64,000 bases of DNA from a virus, in the IMG/VR virus record IMGVR_UViG_3300020469_000011, positions 82,511 to 146,510 of that record; one strand, 5' to 3'. A program made the translations under genes and the position numbers. Of this stretch, positions 22,733-63,115 are shown one piece after another. The notes below the pieces were generated by a model. The model saw only the letters and a list, made by a program, of their open reading frames with translations, made no database searches and had not been told where the DNA came from. How positions within the stretch are numbered: position 1 is the first letter of the stretch; every line of letters starts with the position of its first letter.

Positions 22733-24463
22733 ATGAATAAATTACTTATCTTTGACTATGGAAGTCAGTATACACATTTGATTTCCAAGAGATTTAGAAA
22801 ACTTGGTTACTACACTGAAATATGTCAACCCGATATAGATTTACAATTAATATCTGCTAACGGTATTATTTTATCTGGAGGTCCTGGAAGTACAAATGCA
22901 AATAATGATTTAAATACTAATATATTTGATTTGAATATTCCAATATTAGGTATATGTTATGGTCATCAGTTAATAGCTTCCTACTTCAAAGGCACAGTAA
23001 AATCAAATACTAATGTGGAATTTGGAAAAGCAAACCTAACAAAATGTGAAGATAGTCTTCTTTTTAAAAGATTACCAAATACATTTCAAGTTTGGATGAG
23101 TCATCATGATACTATAACTTCTTTACCTGAGCAGTTTAAAGTTATAGGTAAAACAGAAACTCCTTCTGCAATTGAGCATAAACATAAAAAGATCTATTCA
23201 TTACAATTTCATCCAGAAGTTAATGATACAAACTTTGGTTCAATAATATTAGATAATTTTGCCAAAATATGTAACATTGAAAATAATTGGAATACTAAAA
23301 ACTTTACTGAATCTAGTATTAAAAATATTAAAGAAGAAGTAAAAGACCGTAATGTACTCATGTTTCTGAGTGGAGGTGTAGATTCTAGTGTTGCATTTTC
23401 TTTACTCAACGAGTCTCTGGGGTCTGAACGTGTATTAGGTCTTTTTATAGATAACGGATTTTTAAGAACAAATGAAGCTAAAATAATTTTAGAAAAATAC
23501 AATTCTTTAGGTTATGATAATATAATATTTCGTGACTATAGTATTAAATTTTTAGAAGCTATAAAAAATATTACAGACCCAGAAGAGAAGCGCAAGTCTG
23601 TAGGAGAAACTTTTCTAAAAGTTAGAGAAGAATTTTTAGATGAATTAAATTTAAATACTGATGATTGGTTATTGGGACAAGGTACTTTATATCCAGATAT
23701 TATTGAATCGGGTGGTTCAAAAAATTCACATGTGATCAAATCACATCACAACAGAGTAGATGCTGTAAAAAAATATATTGATAAAGGTTTGATAATTGAA
23801 CCGCTAAAGGAATTATATAAAGATGAAGTTCGTATTCTTGGAGCTTTATTAGGACTCCCAAAACAAATAGTACAAAGACATCCATTTCCAGGTCCAGGTC
23901 TTTCCATTAATGTAATTTGTTCTGATTCAATTTCTGAACAAACTAGTGAATTTTTACCAATAAAAAGTGTTGGTGTGCAAGGTGATCAAAGAACTTATAA
24001 ATCTCCAAAGGTCATTCATAATAAAGCTGATTGGGATACATTAGAAAAATTAAGTATTGAACATACTAATAAGGTAGATGGGAGCAATAGAGTTGTTTTA
24101 CATTTATCTAAAAGTGAAATTAAACATAATGGTTGGATTAGAAAAATTGCGTATTGCACAGAAGAAAGATTAAATATTCTCAGAAAAGCAGAAACTATAG
24201 TCTCTGAGAGTCTAGAAAAAAATAATTGGATGATAAAACTTTTTCAAGTATTAGTTATTCTTTTACCAATTAGTGAAAATGGGAAAAAAGAAAGTATTGT
24301 GATAAGACCAGTGGTATCAGAAGATGTGATGACTGCACAATTTGCTAAAATTGATTGGGATGTCATAGAAGAAATTGTAGATAAATTGTATAAGATGCCG
24401 AATATAGATTCGGTCTTTTATGATATTACACATAAACCTCCAGCGACTTTTGGGTGGGAATAA
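22733..24463 (+). CDS. guaA: GMP synthase (glutamine-hydrolysing), full length
   Basis: The 576-residue enzyme has both domains. The class I glutamine amidotransferase has nucleophile Cys75 in 'LGICYGHQ' and His160/Glu162 in 'QFHPE'. The ATP-pyrophosphatase P-loop is 'FLSGGVDSSV' (about 211-220), followed by 'GQGTLYPDIIES', 'RHPFPGPGLSI', 'VGVQGDQRTY' and the C-terminal 'KPPATFGWE'. It converts XMP to GMP in purine synthesis. All catalytic residues are present, and it is somewhat longer than the E. coli enzyme (525). It lies between the tRNA and the polymerase promoter. It probably raises guanine nucleotide supply during infection. Confidence 0.95.
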   Translation: MNKLLIFDYGSQYTHLISKRFRKLGYYTEICQPDIDLQLISANGIILSGGPGSTNANNDLNTNIFDLNIPILGICYGHQLIASYFKGTVKSNTNVEFGKANLTKCEDSLLFKRLPNTFQVWMSHHDTITSLPEQFKVIGKTETPSAIEHKHKKIYSLQFHPEVNDTNFGSIILDNFAKICNIENNWNTKNFTESSIKNIKEEVKDRNVLMFLSGGVDSSVAFSLLNESLGSERVLGLFIDNGFLRTNEAKIILEKYNSLGYDNIIFRDYSIKFLEAIKNITDPEEKRKSVGETFLKVREEFLDELNLNTDDWLLGQGTLYPDIIESGGSKNSHVIKSHHNRVDAVKKYIDKGLIIEPLKELYKDEVRILGALLGLPKQIVQRHPFPGPGLSINVICSDSISEQTSEFLPIKSVGVQGDQRTYKSPKVIHNKADWDTLEKLSIEHTNKVDGSNRVVLHLSKSEIKHNGWIRKIAYCTEERLNILRKAETIVSESLEKNNWMIKLFQVLVILLPISENGKKESIVIRPVVSEDVMTAQFAKIDWDVIEEIVDKLYKMPNIDSVFYDITHKPPATFGWE

Positions 24464-39663: not shown

Positions 39664-40497
39664 TTAGGCATCAAGTATAATATTACATTTTTCTAACGCA
39701 CTAATCATTCTTGTCATTCCAATTCCCCCACCAACTCTAGGAAAAAAATCAAAAGACAAGAATTTTTCTAATTCAGCTTCTACTCTATCTTTTCCAAATA
39801 AGTTATAAAGCAATTGACTATACTCACCATTTGTTATAGTATGAAAAGTATCACGCATTTGATCTACATTTGTTGACCTCTCTGCTGAACCAATTGTCTC
39901 CATTCCTCCAAGAATAACGTCAATCTTTTTACTATGCACTCCATCTTCATGTCTACTCATATTCCAAAATGGACTTGTAAATTCTGGAAAATCTGTAATC
40001 ATACAAGTACCAAAATTGTTAAACATTGACTCTTCATGACTTGCATCAAGCTCACTATCAACAGCAAAATGTTCCTGCCATTCTACATATGTTCTTTCAG
40101 TTATATCATCAAATCCTAGATAATTACAAAGTTGATATTCCATCTCACTTAAATTTTCAATTGTTCCTGGAAACTCAAATTCAAACATAGGGAAAATTAT
40201 ATCATGTCTTCCTGGTATTGCATTTGGTTCTTGTCTATAACTAGTGCTGATACAAAAAAACCCTTCAGAAGAAGGGCTTTTTAATAATTCATGTTCTAAC
40301 CACATCTGACCTGTTTGAGGTAAAGGCCATACCTCTCCTGCGTAATTATAAGTAGCAACATTGAACGGGTCTTCACATGCTGCTAGAATACTCAAACGAT
40401 TTTGAGTGTGAACTTCTGCGAAACCTCTATCTAAAAAAAAAGATCGTAAAGAATTTACGGTGCTTGTATATTTGCGAGGATCAATTAGTTGGGTCAT
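39664..40497 (-). CDS. Truncated AsnRS/AspRS-like enzyme (possible asparagine synthetase)
   Basis: About 277 residues from MTQLIDPRKYTS, which has AAGGAG five bases upstream. It is the class II aminoacyl-tRNA synthetase core alone: 'EVHTQNRLSILA' (motif 1 region), 'STSYRQEPNAIPGRHDIIFPMFEFEF' (motif 2, residues about 92-117) and motif 3 'RVGGGIGMTRMISAL' (about 252-266). The N-terminal OB anticodon-binding domain is missing. Archaeal AsnRS-like proteins of this size make asparagine from aspartate. Alternatives are tRNA- or protein-modifying enzymes. The gene contains a strong hairpin at 40256-40283. Confidence 0.7.
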   Translation of the reverse strand: MTQLIDPRKYTSTVNSLRSFFLDRGFAEVHTQNRLSILAACEDPFNVATYNYAGEVWPLPQTGQMWLEHELLKSPSSEGFFCISTSYRQEPNAIPGRHDIIFPMFEFEFPGTIENLSEMEYQLCNYLGFDDITERTYVEWQEHFAVDSELDASHEESMFNNFGTCMITDFPEFTSPFWNMSRHEDGVHSKKIDVILGGMETIGSAERSTNVDQMRDTFHTITNGEYSQLLYNLFGKDRVEAELEKFLSFDFFPRVGGGIGMTRMISALEKCNIILDA

Positions 40498-40507
40498 TTT
40501 TCTCCTT

Positions 40508-40738
40508 TCATTTTTTGTCAATTAATTTTTCAACTTCTAATTTTTCTAAATCCCATTGTATATCTTCTAATATCACATCAAGCATTCTAAAGTTTTCTTT
40601 TGCTTCAGAAATGGCTGCTCCTAATATTTCTTTAGTTTCACCATCTTCCATTTGATTATAAATTTTTATAGCAAGACGAAAAACTTTGGGGGCTTCAGTC
40701 AATTCTTTCAAAATAAAATCAAACTCTGTATTACTCAT
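40508..40738 (-). CDS. Small helical hypothetical protein
   Basis: A 76-residue charged, helical protein ('LDVILEDIQWDLEKLEVEKL' is its C-terminal helix), located just before the AsnRS-like gene and probably cotranscribed with it. Not recognised. Confidence 0.55.
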   Translation of the reverse strand: MSNTEFDFILKELTEAPKVFRLAIKIYNQMEDGETKEILGAAISEAKENFRMLDVILEDIQWDLEKLEVEKLIDKK

Positions 40739-40747
40739 ACGTTTTTA

Positions 40748-40852
40748 TTAAATCTCACGAAAGTATAGTAAATATATTATGAATCCCAAAGCATAAGCTA
40801 AAGAACCATATGTAAATATCATGGATAAAATTTTACGTGTATTTTCTTTCAT
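40748..40852 (-). CDS. 34-residue single-span membrane peptide
   Basis: ATG at 40852. The product MKENTRKILSMIFTYGS continues into a hydrophobic span (ALGFIIYLLYF) and ends in REI. Its 5' end overlaps the end of the 56-residue gene by 20 bases. The membrane location is clear and the function unknown. Confidence 0.45.
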   Translation of the reverse strand: MKENTRKILSMIFTYGSLAYALGFIIYLLYFREI

Positions 40853-41003
40853 TATTAATTTTTTGCTGAATCAATTCTTGTTTAATATTATTTTTAATCC
40901 ATTGAGGTAGTTCACTATATCTATATTCTGTCATACCAATTTTCATATTTGGGTCAATGTAAATTTCTTCTTCTGGTTCTGTTATTGGTTGTGCTTTATC
41001 CAT
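40833..41003 (-). CDS. 56-residue hypothetical protein
   Basis: ATG at 41003 opens a 56-codon frame starting MDKAQPITEPEEEIYIDPNM and ending in a Lys/Asn/Gln-rich helix. It fills the gap between the lipoprotein-like gene and the small membrane peptide. Not recognised. Confidence 0.45.
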   Translation of the reverse strand: MDKAQPITEPEEEIYIDPNMKIGMTEYRYSELPQWIKNNIKQELIQQKINNERKYT

Positions 41004-41010
41004 AAATACC

Positions 41011-41601
41011 TTATTTCACCCTCAATGTAAATTCAATAGGGTCTAATTTAATAATATTTAAACTCTCATTTACAAATCCATGTAACTTAGTTTTATATAA
41101 TAATGTGATATCTGATGTATTATCAACATTAACCTTTGCTCCATCTAAAGTCATATCAGATTTTACAAGAGAGTAATTAAAGAATCCACTTGATGCTTTA
41201 GTAAAGTTATCTAATCCTGGTGTAATTCCAGTTTGATTAACAACAACCATATCAGAAGTACCTTCAATATATAGAGTGAGTACTGGTAAAGTTCCTAATG
41301 TCCAATTAGCAAGTGATAAATTTTGTGAAGTGCCACCATACAGTGCCATAACATATGTACTATTTTCTGAAGATTTTGGTGTTAGTGACGTAGTAGAATT
41401 TGAACTACTTTTATCATTTGTTGTGGTAGTAGTAGTGGTAGTGGTTACTGTATGATTGTCTTTAATAATTTCTTTATGACTAGTTACAGTATGATTATCT
41501 TTGAGAGTGATTGTAGATTCTAACTTATTTTCTGGTAAAGCATCTCTACATGATGCTGCTAATAATGCTAATGCTATAATAGTGATAGCCTTTTTAAACA
41601 T
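41011..41601 (-). CDS. Probable exported lipoprotein with HTVT repeats
   Basis: About 196 residues from MFKKAITI, chosen because AAGGAG sits 5 bases upstream. The N-terminal signal peptide ends in LLAASC (lipobox-like, Cys about 18). It is followed by two KDNHTVT repeats, a run of nine Thr and a Ser/Thr-rich linker, then a beta-rich domain (about 85-196). It is predicted to be lipidated and anchored in the host envelope, as in superinfection-exclusion or lysis lipoproteins. No family recognised. Confidence 0.55.
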   Translation of the reverse strand: MFKKAITIIALALLAASCRDALPENKLESTITLKDNHTVTSHKEIIKDNHTVTTTTTTTTTNDKSSSNSTTSLTPKSSENSTYVMALYGGTSQNLSLANWTLGTLPVLTLYIEGTSDMVVVNQTGITPGLDNFTKASSGFFNYSLVKSDMTLDGAKVNVDNTSDITLLYKTKLHGFVNESLNIIKLDPIEFTLRVK

Positions 41602-48423: not shown

Positions 48424-49578
48424 TTAAATTTCAGATAATATTTTTCTTAAAACATCTAATTCTTCTTCTCCAACAAATTGATTATTTCCTATATATAGGC
48501 CATGCTCATGTAAAATATCAACATTTGAAACTTTTTTTGTGCTTTCAATTTTGTAATTTATGTATGGCTGCTTCAATAAATTTCCAGCAACTATAGGACG
48601 ATACTCAATTTTATTTTCTAAAAATTTATTAATTAAATTATTTTTAACTTCAGTATTTTTACATATGAAAGGTAAACAAAATGAACTATTTCTCATATTA
48701 TTTTTAAGAGTATGAAAATTATTATTATCATTAATTAATTTTACAAATTCTGAATATATTTTATTACGATTAATAATAAAACCATCAAGTTTTTTTAGTT
48801 GAGACAATCCTAAAATGGCAGATAATTCAGTATTCCGAAAATTATAACCATCAGTTACAAATAAAAAAGACTTTTCAATATTTGAATATTGATTTGCATA
48901 TTCATCAAATTTATCAGAAACTCTCGCTAAACCGTGTGACCGTTTGATTTTCATTAGATCGTATAAATTTGAATCGTTTGTAGAAATCATTCCTCCTTCA
49001 ATCGTGGTCATGTGGTGTCCAAAATAAAAACTAAAAGTTGCGCCTAAACTATCAGAACCAATTTTAGTATTATTTTCATCTAGACATCCATGTGATTCAC
49101 AAACATCATCAATAAAGATAGATTCTGTAAAAATTTCTTTATACTTTTTTATGTTTGCAGGAAATCCTAAAAGATGTGTTGTGAAAACTATTTTGATATC
49201 TGGATGTTTTTCTTTTATTAACAATAGCTCATCTTCATCAAAACTAAAATTATCAAAATTTATATCACAAAAAATTGGAGTAAGTCCTAATTGAAAAATG
49301 GGATTGATATTTGTTACCCAAGTACATGCAGGTAATAAAACTTTATCACCTTTTTTTAAATTATACTTTTCAATAATTGACGCTACTAATAAGAAATCAG
49401 CCGTACTACCAGAAGTTACAAATAATGAGTGTTTTGCCCCCAACCATTCAGACCATCTTGTTTCAAATTCTTCAACCTTAATTCCCTGAGTAAATCTATC
49501 AGAAGTTAAAATAAATTGTATGAGTTTAAACTTATCTAATAAAGTTATTGAGTTTTTCATTAAAGGCCAATTATACAT
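48424..49578 (-). CDS. colD: ColD-type GDP-4-keto-6-deoxymannose 3-dehydratase
   Basis: The 384-residue PLP-dependent sugar enzyme of the DegT/DnrJ fold has 'LLPACTWVTNINPIFQLGL' (about 85-103) and 'FSFYFGHHMTTIEGGM' (about 180-195). At the position of the usual Schiff-base Lys there is His (FGHHMTT), the hallmark of ColD, which removes the 3-hydroxyl of GDP-4-keto-6-deoxymannose instead of transferring an amino group. With Gmd and the Fcl/ColC-like enzyme it would make GDP-colitose. The start overlaps the upstream gene by 8 bases. Confidence 0.8.
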   Translation of the reverse strand: MYNWPLMKNSITLLDKFKLIQFILTSDRFTQGIKVEEFETRWSEWLGAKHSLFVTSGSTADFLLVASIIEKYNLKKGDKVLLPACTWVTNINPIFQLGLTPIFCDINFDNFSFDEDELLLIKEKHPDIKIVFTTHLLGFPANIKKYKEIFTESIFIDDVCESHGCLDENNTKIGSDSLGATFSFYFGHHMTTIEGGMISTNDSNLYDLMKIKRSHGLARVSDKFDEYANQYSNIEKSFLFVTDGYNFRNTELSAILGLSQLKKLDGFIINRNKIYSEFVKLINDNNNFHTLKNNMRNSSFCLPFICKNTEVKNNLINKFLENKIEYRPIVAGNLLKQPYINYKIESTKKVSNVDILHEHGLYIGNNQFVGEEELDVLRKILSEI

Positions 49579-50506
49579 AATTTATTCTCTTTTTATACCA
49601 TTCATAAGTTTGTGTAAGACCATCTTCAAATTTAGTTTTAGCTTTCCAACCAAAATTAGATAATTTACTTACATCAAGTAATTTTCTTGGCATTCCGTCT
49701 GGTTTGGTATGGTCCCAAATTACCGAACCTTCATATTCTATTATTGAACATAAAGTATACACTAGTTTTTTAATAGTTATATCTACACCTGTTCCTACAT
49801 TTATAATATCTGAATTTTCATAATTATTCATACAGAAAATACATGCTTCTGCTAAATCATCAACATATAAAAATTCTCTTTTGGCAGAGCCCGTACCCCA
49901 ACATACTATCTCTTTATATTTCTTTGTCTTAGCTTCATGAATCTTATTAATTAATGCAGGAATTACATGACCACTTTCTAAGCTAAAATTGTCATTTGGT
50001 CCATATATATTAGTAGGCATTAAACTTATAGTGTTAAATTCATATTGGTCTTTATATGATTTACACATTTGTATGCCAGCTATTTTTGCAATTGCATATG
50101 AATCATTAGTCTCTTCTAATTTGCCTGTAAGAAAATATTCTTCTTTAATTGGCTGTTCTGCTAATTTAGGATAGATACATGATGAGCCGAGAAAACAAAG
50201 TTTCTTAACACCACTTTGATATGCTTTATGAATTACATTTGTTTGTATACTTAAATTATCATATATAAATTCAGCTTTTTTAGAACTATTAGCCATTATT
50301 CCTCCAACTTTTGCTGCTGAAAGAAAAACATAATCAATTTTATAATTATCAAAAATATAATTTACACCTTCCTTTTCTCTCAAATCAAAATCTTTACTAC
50401 TAAATGTAAGTATATTTTTATAACCACTTTCTTTTAATTTTTTTACAATTGTTGATCCAACAAGACCGTTATGACCAGCAACGTAAATTTTAGATTTTTT
50501 TTCCAT
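49571..50506 (-). CDS. fcl: GDP-fucose synthase / GDP-colitose synthase-like epimerase-reductase
   Basis: The 311-residue short-chain dehydrogenase has 'YVAGHNGLVGSTIVKKL' (NADP-binding), 'CFLGSSCIYPK' (catalytic Ser and Cys, about 105-115), 'DSYAIAKIAG' (Y-x3-K, about 135) and 'SGHVIPALI' (His about 179). All Fcl residues are present. Because ColD is adjacent and ColC is homologous to Fcl, the true product may be GDP-colitose. The enzyme acts as a 3,5-epimerase/4-reductase in the cytoplasm. Confidence 0.88.
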   Translation of the reverse strand: MEKKSKIYVAGHNGLVGSTIVKKLKESGYKNILTFSSKDFDLREKEGVNYIFDNYKIDYVFLSAAKVGGIMANSSKKAEFIYDNLSIQTNVIHKAYQSGVKKLCFLGSSCIYPKLAEQPIKEEYFLTGKLEETNDSYAIAKIAGIQMCKSYKDQYEFNTISLMPTNIYGPNDNFSLESGHVIPALINKIHEAKTKKYKEIVCWGTGSAKREFLYVDDLAEACIFCMNNYENSDIINVGTGVDITIKKLVYTLCSIIEYEGSVIWDHTKPDGMPRKLLDVSKLSNFGWKAKTKFEDGLTQTYEWYKKRINYV

Positions 50507-50510
50507 TTAT

Positions 50511-51224
50511 TTACACCGTGAATCCATAATTTTTATTAGTATATTTTTTTAAATAATCATTTTTTTCTATCCATTTAATCCACTCATAATCTGCTGTTTT
50601 ATTATATTCATCAAATGATGAATTTATTGAATTCATTTTTTTTCTTACACCTGACCTCATATGACTAATTGAAGTATTATCAAGAATAATATTTTTTAAT
50701 CCTAAAGAATTTGATATATTTGAACTAATAAAATCAACCCAACCATATTTGTGTGTTGGAATTGAAGGATGTAATTTTTTCAAAATTTCTACATTATAAA
50801 AAGGACAAATATTTTCAATAAAATAAACTTCACGATAATTTTCTCCTATCTTAAACATAACAGGATATGGACACCCATCATCAATAATTGATGAGTGTAT
50901 TATACCAGTATTTTTGTTAAAATGTTTTAAAGAAGATTCAATTAAATTGTTAGATATATTAAAAATATCGTTATTAAAAATACCAACAAATAAATTTTTA
51001 TCATCCTTATGTTTATCAATTATCCAATCATAAAAACCACCCACGTTTATATTTTTAATTCCTAAATTAATAGTGAACTCATTAGAAAAAGATTCTTCTA
51101 AAATGTCTGAATTTTCTAAAACATATAAATTATTTGTTTGTTTTTTTAAAGATTGAAAAACTAAACTTGTAAAATCTTTTGAATTGTGAGATAGTATATA
51201 AATTATATAATCATTTTTCTCCAT
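50511..51224 (-). CDS. GT2-like glycosyltransferase
   Basis: The 237-residue protein opens '[21 protein letters not shown]' and has '[12 protein letters not shown]' (acidic nucleotide-sugar site, about 79-90), a later 'KYGWVDF' and '[12 protein letters not shown]'. This is a short GT-A fold of the GT2 type. The start overlaps the Gmd stop region by 14 bases. Specificity unknown. Confidence 0.6.
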
Positions 51225-52218
51225 AATACATTTCCTCCACTAACATATCAAAATCATATTCAGGATTCCACCCCAATGTCCATCTAGCTTTTTTTGAGTT
51301 ACCAAGTAAAGATTCTACTTCCGTTGGACGATAATATTTGATATCTACACTGACAAGAGTTTTACCAGATTTTTTATCATATCCATATTCAAACTCATGG
51401 TTTCCTGTCCATACTAAGTCATAGCCAGCAAGTTTTGAAACTCTTTCAACAAAATCTCGAACTGAATATTGCTTACCCGTAGCAATCACATAATCATCAG
51501 GAACGTCTTGCTGTAACATCAACCACATTGCTTTTACATAATCTTTTGCATGACCCCAATCACGTTTTGCATTTAAATTGCCAAGTTTTAAAATATCAAT
51601 TTTTCCTGTCTGAATATCGTGAAATCCATTAACAATTTTTTTTGTCACAAAAGTATTACCTCTTCTTGGTGATTCATGATTAAAAAGAATACCAGAACTT
51701 GCATGAATGCCATATGCTTCACGATAATTTTTAACAATCCAAAAGCCATATATTTTTGCTACTCCATAAGGAGAGCGAGGATAAAAAGGAGTTGTTTCTG
51801 TCTGAGGAGTTTCTTGAACTAAACCATATAGTTCAGAAGTTGAAGCTTGATAAAAACGAACTTTATTTTCTAAACCTAATGTTCGAATTGCTTCAAGAAA
51901 TCTCAAAGTTCCAAGACCATCAACTTCTCCGGTATAGTCTGGAATTTCAAAAGAAACTTTTACATGAGATTGTGCGGCTAAATTATATATTTCATCAGGT
52001 CTTGTTTTTTGTATGATATGTAAAAGACTTGAACCATCTGTCATATCACCAAAATGTAATGTTAAATTAGAATTGTTAAATAAATGATCAATTCTTTTAG
52101 TGTTAAAAGATGAAGACCTACGAATAATACCATGAACTTGATAACCTTTTTCAAGAAGTAATTCTGCTAGATAAGAGCCGTCTTGGCCTGTTATTCCACT
52201 TATTAATGCTGTTTTCAT
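51211..52218 (-). CDS. gmd: GDP-mannose 4,6-dehydratase
   Basis: The 335-residue enzyme has '[20 protein letters not shown]' (NADP-binding), '[11 protein letters not shown]' (about 121-131), '[12 protein letters not shown]' (Y-x3-K, about 149), '[16 protein letters not shown]' and '[16 protein letters not shown]'. It makes GDP-4-keto-6-deoxymannose, the branch point for fucose and colitose. No GDP-mannose synthesis gene is in the window, so host GDP-mannose must feed the pathway. Confidence 0.95.
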
Positions 52219-52229
52219 AAAAAAAATAA

Positions 52230-53372
52230 TTAAGAGTTTAAAATATCACATATTCTCTGTGCTAAATTTCGAAACCACGGTTTATCATGACCTCTAGTAG
52301 TTTCAGCGGCTGTGCCTATACGAATACCGCTAGTTTCAACAAAAGACCTTGGATCGTTAGGCACTCCATTTTTATTTAAGGTAATATCATTTTCTTCTAA
52401 TAAATCGGCAGCTTGTCTACCGCTGTACTTTTTATCTATTAAATTTAATAAAACAATATGGCTATCAGTTCCTTTTGTTTGTACATGATATCCATTTTCA
52501 ATAAAAACTTTACACATTTCTTTTGCATTTTCAATTACATGTCTTATATAAAGTTTAAACTCATCAGTATCAGCTTCCATAAAAGCTTGTGCTTTTGCTG
52601 CAATCATATTCATTAAAGGACCTCCTTGTGTACCAGGAAAAATAGCACTGTTAATTTTCTTGGTAAATTTATCATCATTCCATAAAATAAATCCACCTCT
52701 AGGTCCTCTCAAAGTTTTATGCGTTGTGCTAGTGACTACATGTACCCATTCTGTAGGATTGGGATACCATCCACCAGCAATTAAACCACTATAATGTGCA
52801 ATGTCTGCCATTAAATAAGCATTATTATAGTCTGCAATATCTGCTAGTTCTGCCCAATTTATTCTTCTTGGATATGCACTAGCACCTGCAATGATCAATT
52901 TAGGTTTAACTTTTTTTGCTATTCTATGAATGTAGTCATAGTCTAACCAACCATCTTCATCTACACCATAATGATGAGCATTATATACTTTACCTGATAT
53001 ATTAAATTTAGCACCATGACTTAAATGTCCACCACTTGCCAAATCCATACCAAGTATAGTATCACCTGGATTTAAAAGTGCTTGATATGCTGCCGTATTT
53101 GAGTTTGCTCCACAATGCGGTTGTACATTAGCAAACTTACTTTCATATAACTTACATAAAGTATTGATAGCAAGTTCTTCTATTTCATCTATATGACTAC
53201 ATCCATTATAATATCTTTTTCCTGGGTATCCTTCTGCATACTTATTTGTAAATTCACTACCACATAGTTTCATTACGGCATCACTTGCAAAATTTTCACT
53301 TGCTATCAATTCAATCGTAGTCTCTTGTCTATCTAATTCTCTATCTAATATTTCTCTGATTTGTGTGTACAT
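52230..53372 (-). CDS. glyA: Serine hydroxymethyltransferase
   Basis: The 380-residue enzyme has '[35 protein letters not shown]' features (residues about 24-58), the PLP Lys in '[15 protein letters not shown]' (about 214-228) and '[11 protein letters not shown]' (about 246-256). It produces 5,10-methylene-THF and glycine from serine, which would feed the phage ThyX. It is shorter than the usual about 415-420, mostly by trimming of the C-terminal domain. Confidence 0.93.
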
Positions 53373-62367: not shown

Positions 62368-62396
62368 TTGACATTTTTAATAAATTATGTTAGAAT
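62368..62396 (+). promoter_or_regulatory. Sigma70-type early promoter (TTGACA-N17-TAGAAT)
   Basis: TTGACA at 62368-62373 and TAGAAT at 62391-62396 with a 17-base spacer, 31 bases before the 52-residue gene. It opens the tmRNA/redox/phosphate region. Confidence 0.75.
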
Positions 62397-62426: not shown

Positions 62427-62585
62427 ATGAAAAGAAGAAGAGGTAGAAAAGCTTCAAAAAGAACAGTTAGATGTACTATTTGTACTACTCATCGTTGGTT
62501 AGGAAACAATGAAGGTAGGTGGAATATCAACACAAAGAAAAAACATTACGCTACAAAAGAGCAGTTAAAAGAATTTACTTGTTGA
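62427..62585 (+). CDS. 52-residue basic protein with CxxC (zinc-ribbon-like)
   Basis: ATG at 62427 with TAAGGA upstream. It starts MKRRRGRKASKRTVRCTICT, giving a strongly basic N-terminus and C-T-I-C; a third Cys is the last residue. It may be a small nucleic-acid-binding protein. Its stop lies just before the tmRNA acceptor part. Confidence 0.5.
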   Translation: MKRRRGRKASKRTVRCTICTTHRWLGNNEGRWNINTKKKHYATKEQLKEFTC

Positions 62586-62589
62586 CCTG

Positions 62590-62840
62590 AAAAGATAATC
62601 GCTACGGACCCGAGTTGCGATACTCGGCGGCTCCACCAAGATAGCATTTTACGAAGTGCTATGTTAGGGGCCGAATAGATTCGACGTGGGATGAAAATAT
62701 CAGAGAGAGTAGATAGGGTGATGACCAACATCAAACCTTATAGTCGCAAACAACAATGACTATGCACCTGTACTTGCCGCAATAGCAGCATAATACAGCG
62801 GGGATTAGGGTTGTTCCTTGTTACTAAAACAACCCAATTA
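62590..62840 (+). ncRNA. ssrA: Circularly permuted (two-piece type) tmRNA
   Basis: The 3' acceptor part comes first: T-arm stem CCGAG/CTCGG and acceptor strand CGGCTCC, discriminator A and CCA ending at 62638. A 28-base intervening piece with a hairpin (62641-62662) follows. The 5' part then begins GGGGCCG at 62667, followed by the tmRNA-typical 'GATTCGACG'. GGGGCCG pairs with CGGCTCC over 7 bp and includes the G3-U70 pair needed by alanyl-tRNA synthetase. The tag frame runs from GCA at 62746 to TAA at 62793: ANNNDYAPVLAAIAA. A final hairpin (62808-62815/62828-62835) closes the gene. End coordinates are approximate. Confidence 0.9.
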
Positions 62841-62869
62841 ATTATTAACCCGTGTCTATTAAAGGAGAT

Positions 62870-63115
62870 ATGCAATTAGATATTAAAGGTTCGGTGGTTT
62901 TTAGACATATCACTTATCCAGATTGTGAAAAGTGTGAAGAAGGTGCAGAATTAATGCGAGAAAGAGGAATACGATTTGCTACAATAACTTGTGATAAATC
63001 ACTATTCGGTGCACTAATGGCTGAAACCAAATCACAAGACGTTCCACAATTTTTTGTAAAAGGCAAATATATTGGTGGTCTGACTGAATTGAAAGCTCAC
63101 TTAGAAACATTATAA
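62870..63115 (+). CDS. Glutaredoxin/thioredoxin-fold protein
   Basis: About 81 residues from ATG 62870. A GTG at 62852 is also possible, and AGGAG lies only 2 bases before the ATG, so the start is uncertain. It has the redox centre 'YPDCEKCEEG' (C-x2-C), cis-Pro motif 'DVPQFFVKGKYIGG' and the glutaredoxin C-terminal helix. It may reduce peroxiredoxin or ribonucleotide reductase. It follows the tmRNA. Confidence 0.75.
   Translation: MQLDIKGSVVFRHITYPDCEKCEEGAELMRERGIRFATITCDKSLFGALMAETKSQDVPQFFVKGKYIGGLTELKAHLETL

Follow-up and report, generated by a model that had tools for sequence, protein, structure and literature searches.

The locus analysed here raises the question of whether a phage encodes a working tmRNA of its own. 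It lies near the end of the window, the 64,000-nucleotide stretch that closes a 146,510-bp IMG/VR virus record, where a preliminary description had proposed a phage-borne, circularly permuted tmRNA and had named a covariance search as its check. Both relevant Rfam models matched in cmscan above their curated cut-offs: RF04321 (tmRNA_permuted; 62575-62793, 88.7 bits, E 1.1e-15, cut-off 47 bits) and RF01849 (alpha_tmRNA; 62525-62838, 67.2 bits, E 3.3e-16, cut-off 50 bits). The circularly permuted tmRNA gene occupies positions 62575-62840 on the plus strand; its start at about 62575 or earlier lies upstream of the 62590 first given, and it overlaps the end of a small ORF. The unconstrained minimum-energy fold of 62575-62840 (-77.7 kcal/mol, z -3.6) yields the acceptor stem, the T arm, a spacer hairpin and an interrupted P2 helix. 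The Rfam matches and the T4-like gene content of the record support the original proposal, and the features of the sequence make it very likely that the phage encodes, at this locus, a functional and circularly permuted tmRNA of alphaproteobacterial type.

The record encodes a T4-type DNA polymerase (gp43), a DnaB-like helicase, primase, UvsX and ribonucleotide reductase, as well as an SbcC-like (gp46-type) nuclease subunit, a baseplate hub and tail-fibre proteins; with a G+C content of approximately 29-31%, it is an AT-rich T4-like phage fragment. Its DNA polymerase shares at most 42% identity with the named phage records listed, and a marine origin of the phage is suggested because the best polymerase matches listed are from marine cyanophages and marine single-cell virus records. 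The record is probably incomplete, given that it ends approximately 1.2 kb past the tmRNA and that a linear virus record is often a fragment. Two candidate major capsid ORFs were rejected, as neither has a phage match; one is without a family and the other is a tail-fibre protein. Elsewhere on the record, a protein with a GcvP (glycine dehydrogenase) C-terminal domain at record positions 40031-41224 (L290:31-1224), outside the window, is a possible auxiliary metabolic gene. Within the window, an aminotransferase, a nucleotide-sugar epimerase and a methyltransferase on the minus strand (48424-53372) suggest a sugar-modification cluster, and a GMP synthase-like protein with GATase and GMP synthase C-terminal domains is present at 22733-24463.

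The permuted gene order previously described, in which the acceptor half ending with CCA at 62638 precedes the 5' half beginning with GGGGCCG at 62667, is exact in the sequence (Table 1). The two strands of the acceptor stem pair at 7 of 7 positions and place G3-U70 at U62632-G62669, in agreement with the perfect alanine-type stem that had been claimed. The 28-base piece between the halves (62639-62666) had been called a hairpin, and folding bears this out with 9 pairs (62641-62649 with 62654-62662; -8.2 kcal/mol, z -3.45). A P2 helix linking both pieces is present by folding and by comparison with L123, a 26-kb viral contig carrying the only close orthologue found, and two mature RNA pieces are predicted from the gene. 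The resume frame encodes a tag followed by a stop codon, as described before, and is preceded by UAGUC, as is the resume codon of E. coli tmRNA, whereas the alpha consensus at this position is AUAAuU. The loop of the hairpin 3' of the tag resembles the alpha-tmRNA 3' element.

Table 1. Positions of the tmRNA elements and adjacent features in the window.
Feature	Position	Strand	Remarks
Sigma70-type promoter, TTGACA-17-TAGAAT, TG before -10	62368-62396	+	Predicted; precedes small ORF and tmRNA
52-aa basic cysteine-containing ORF, MKRRRGRKASKRTVRCTICTTHRW...KEFTC*	62427-62585	+	Without known family
Acceptor piece: P2 5' strand, T arm, acceptor 3' strand, CCA	62575-62638	+	Start position approximate
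T arm, CCGAG-UUGCGAUA-CUCGG	62610-62627	+	8-nt loop; alternatively 6 pairs with a 6-nt loop
Acceptor stem 3' strand, CGGCUCC	62628-62634	+
A then CCA	62635-62638 (CCA 62636-62638)	+	After acceptor 3' strand
Intervening spacer, 28 nt	62639-62666	+	Predicted to be removed
Acceptor stem 5' strand, GGGGCCG	62667-62673	+	Start of coding piece
D region, AATAGATTCGACG	62674-62686	+	7-nt linker, one base below usual
Interrupted P2 helix, 3' strands	62685-62712	+	Fold and pairing
Tag reading frame, ANNNDYAPVLAAIAA-stop	62746-62793	+	Resume codon GCA at 62746, UAUAGUC just 5'
8-pair hairpin 3' of tag, loop CCUUGUUACUAA	62808-62835	+	Pairs identical in L123
Glutaredoxin	62870-63115	+	Downstream neighbour, outside tmRNA; SD at 62864

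The RNA region of the window and that of L123 are 93% identical over 286 aligned bases, compared with 70% identity for the protein of the nearby orf205. No insertions or deletions separate the two between the CCA and the stop codon of the tag, and L123 retains the CCA, the acceptor stem with G3-U70, the T stem, the 3' hairpin and the spacer hairpin, the last of these with one compensatory change from G-C to A-U. P2 is mostly retained, the pair 62603-62688 being U-G in the window and U-U in L123, and L123 has UAGACG at the conserved UCGACG motif. The L123 tag reads ANNNDYTSAQVAMAA-stop and shares its ANNNDY start and AA end with the window tag, the middle being variable. A distant blastn search of phage records for a full-length relative returned none, matching just the T arm of Rhodobacter phage RcSimone-Hastad and an unrelated short stretch.

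Conservation extends upstream of the RNA. L123 has a small basic ORF of 55 aa that aligns with the 52-aa ORF of the window, and in both contigs the 3' end of this ORF reaches into the 5' strand of P2. The downstream neighbour, glutaredoxin in the window, differs in L123, which suggests that the small ORF and the tmRNA move as a unit. The predicted promoter of the window fits 11 of 12 consensus positions, in a region where such matches overall are no more numerous than in shuffled sequence; L123 has a promoter-like site, TTGACA-17-TATGAT, in the equivalent position 3' of its orf205 homologue, with further genes between this site and the small ORF.

A phage-borne permuted (two-piece) tmRNA is an already known kind, to which the window gene adds a member; Buchholz et al. 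2022 (PMC9004378) describe 53 two-piece tmRNAs in phages, of which 50 come from marine or aquatic samples, and phage sequences of every form number 79 in the tmRNA database (PMC11915505). In viral IMG/VR contigs, at least 120 stretches match a simple permuted-tmRNA pattern; most look real, many among the matches listed have a T arm, acceptor pairing and tags, and 93 unique sequences pass pairing filters, of which a few are chance matches. Three of 26 records, reached mostly via a neighbouring peroxiredoxin-like gene, carry a permuted tmRNA, one of these records being 148 kb in length.

Like the window gene, the tmRNAs of the Methylophilales phage Melnitz and of other marine and aquatic phages are of the permuted alpha type in a T4-like marine phage, with a putative early sigma70 promoter close by and a full tag frame (PMC9004378). 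They differ in their neighbours, Rfam reporting no glutamine riboswitch near the window gene, and in having been found by ARAGORN, which misses the window gene with its unusual T and D regions. Alphaproteobacterial tmRNA (RF01849, RF04321) shares the gene order, the G3-U70 acceptor stem, the CCA encoded before the 5' half, P2 and the 3' hairpin loop motif, whereas the window gene has an 8-nt T loop, a 7-nt D linker and a shorter 3' region. An unannotated permuted tmRNA was also observed in RcSimone-Hastad (MW677525; L122:1472-1759). It is likewise of the alpha type on a phage genome (108.7 bits), but has a standard 7-nt T loop, a long spacer and the tag ANDNVRMDAQALAA.

The modest new point is structural: the T loop is longer by one base and the D region shorter by one base, an arrangement that several other phage families share. 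Relative to the expected 5-pair T stem with a 7-nt loop and a UCGAC D region without a stem, the window gene has each of these elements, but with 8 nt in the T loop and 7 nt in the D linker; the alternative T arm would gain a U-A sixth pair. The 8-nt T loop and 7-nt D linker are common to the window gene, L123 and other phage tmRNAs. Among phage tmRNAs sampled by D-linker length alone and clustered at 90% identity, a T loop of at least 8 nt occurs in 8 of 14 short-linker clusters and 1 of 44 longer-linker clusters (Fisher p 1e-5, a value that ignores phylogeny), although L265 and L282, which account for two of the eight, have 9-nt loops by this scoring and may be six-pair stems instead. Clustering at 75% identity merged all phage tmRNAs in the sample.

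ARAGORN misses the window gene, L123, L248, L258, L259, L265, L266, L269 and L272, all of which score above the Rfam cut-off. It detects L251, which belongs to the same short-linker, long-loop class, and the tested short-linker phage tmRNAs with a 7-nt T loop. A few ordinary-loop tmRNAs (e.g. L205, L009 and L031) are also missed, and loop length is therefore not the sole cause. Nevertheless, since nearly all phage tmRNAs with a long T loop and short D linker are missed, ARAGORN-based surveys probably undercount phage tmRNAs. Approximately 20 tRNA genes accompany the permuted tmRNA on the viral contig L266, which also has a match to a group I intron. A tentative reading, more doubtful than probable, is that these phage tmRNAs form a permuted subclass in which a shortened D region and a longer T loop compensate for each other at the elbow, which has arisen more than once, is nearly all invisible to ARAGORN and may alter the hold of host SmpB on the RNA.

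The permuted form had also been taken to inform the host, an argument that is weak. Melnitz has an alpha-type tmRNA yet infects a gammaproteobacterium (PMC9004378), and so such a tmRNA is no proof of an alphaproteobacterial host. With a tRNA-like-domain model, the best score among 385 alphaproteobacterial genomes was 53 bits (L294), against 176 bits for L123, which itself helped to build the model. The permuted alpha tmRNA of L294, a 4.8-Mb alphaproteobacterial genome, scores weakly (114.6 bits), has a lengthened T arm and may belong to a prophage. Bacterial genomes were also scanned with two exact patterns for a host with the same RNA, and none emerged: one scan returned nothing, and the 22 matches of the other were unlike the window gene. 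The earlier statement that the phage brings its own ribosome rescue holds only in part: SmpB, SspB and ClpP (PF01668, PF04386, PF00574) were not found on the 146.5-kb, probably incomplete, record, indicating that the phage supplies the RNA only and depends on the host for the proteins.

If the gene functions as a tmRNA, early transcription from the sigma70-like promoter would probably yield a precursor that also covers the small ORF, and host tRNA-processing enzymes would cut out the spacer. The products would be an acceptor RNA ending in CCA and a coding RNA starting with GGGGCCG, joined via the acceptor stem and P2. Host AlaRS would charge the acceptor end by way of G3-U70, and host SmpB and EF-Tu would bring the charged phage tmRNA to ribosomes stalled on broken mRNA, where translation would resume at GCA 62746 and append ANNNDYAPVLAAIAA, whose C-terminal IAA should direct the product to host ClpXP. 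The likeliest benefit would be the recycling of ribosomes during degradation of host and phage mRNA, with a tag defined by the phage.

Several features count against a functional tmRNA, namely the broken P2 pair and UAGACG in L123, the atypical T and D regions, and the single close orthologue, and other explanations of the locus were weighed. That the gene goes unreported by ARAGORN might suggest a chance resemblance, or a bacterial contig miscalled as phage, but this has a negligible probability and is already refuted by the Rfam score (E 1e-15) and by the phage genes with which it shares the record, namely those for gp43, UvsX, the DnaB-like helicase, the baseplate hub and the tail. It is improbable, too, that a real tmRNA-derived gene serves as a decoy that ties up the SmpB of the host and blocks or diverts trans-translation by the host, with tagging being incidental. 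Such a role would be consistent with the altered T and D regions, with the failure to find SmpB on the record, and with mycobacteriophage DS6A, which also carries a tmRNA relative; the DS6A RNA corresponds roughly to the tRNA-like domain alone, and strong inhibition of tmRNA is described for a molecule of similar make-up (PMC4131195). The window gene, however, retains a tag frame, with a resume codon, a stop codon and ends conserved relative to L123, none of which a decoy needs.

A captured host gene that is decaying and has no present function is very improbable, even though the unpaired P2 position and altered UAGACG motif of L123 fit decay, as does an alpha_tmRNA score of 67 bits against 115-267 bits in the bacterial relatives examined. 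Decay is at odds with an RNA that is better conserved across the two phages than the adjacent orf205 protein, with the compensatory change in the spacer, and with the frame, CCA and acceptor stem that are intact in both phages.

The functional tmRNA reading adds two closely related phages that maintain a complete permuted tmRNA under visible selection. If the subclass reading is true, phage tmRNA may behave differently from host tmRNA with host SmpB. The conserved phage-specific tag makes it testable what a phage gains from a tmRNA and tag of its own.
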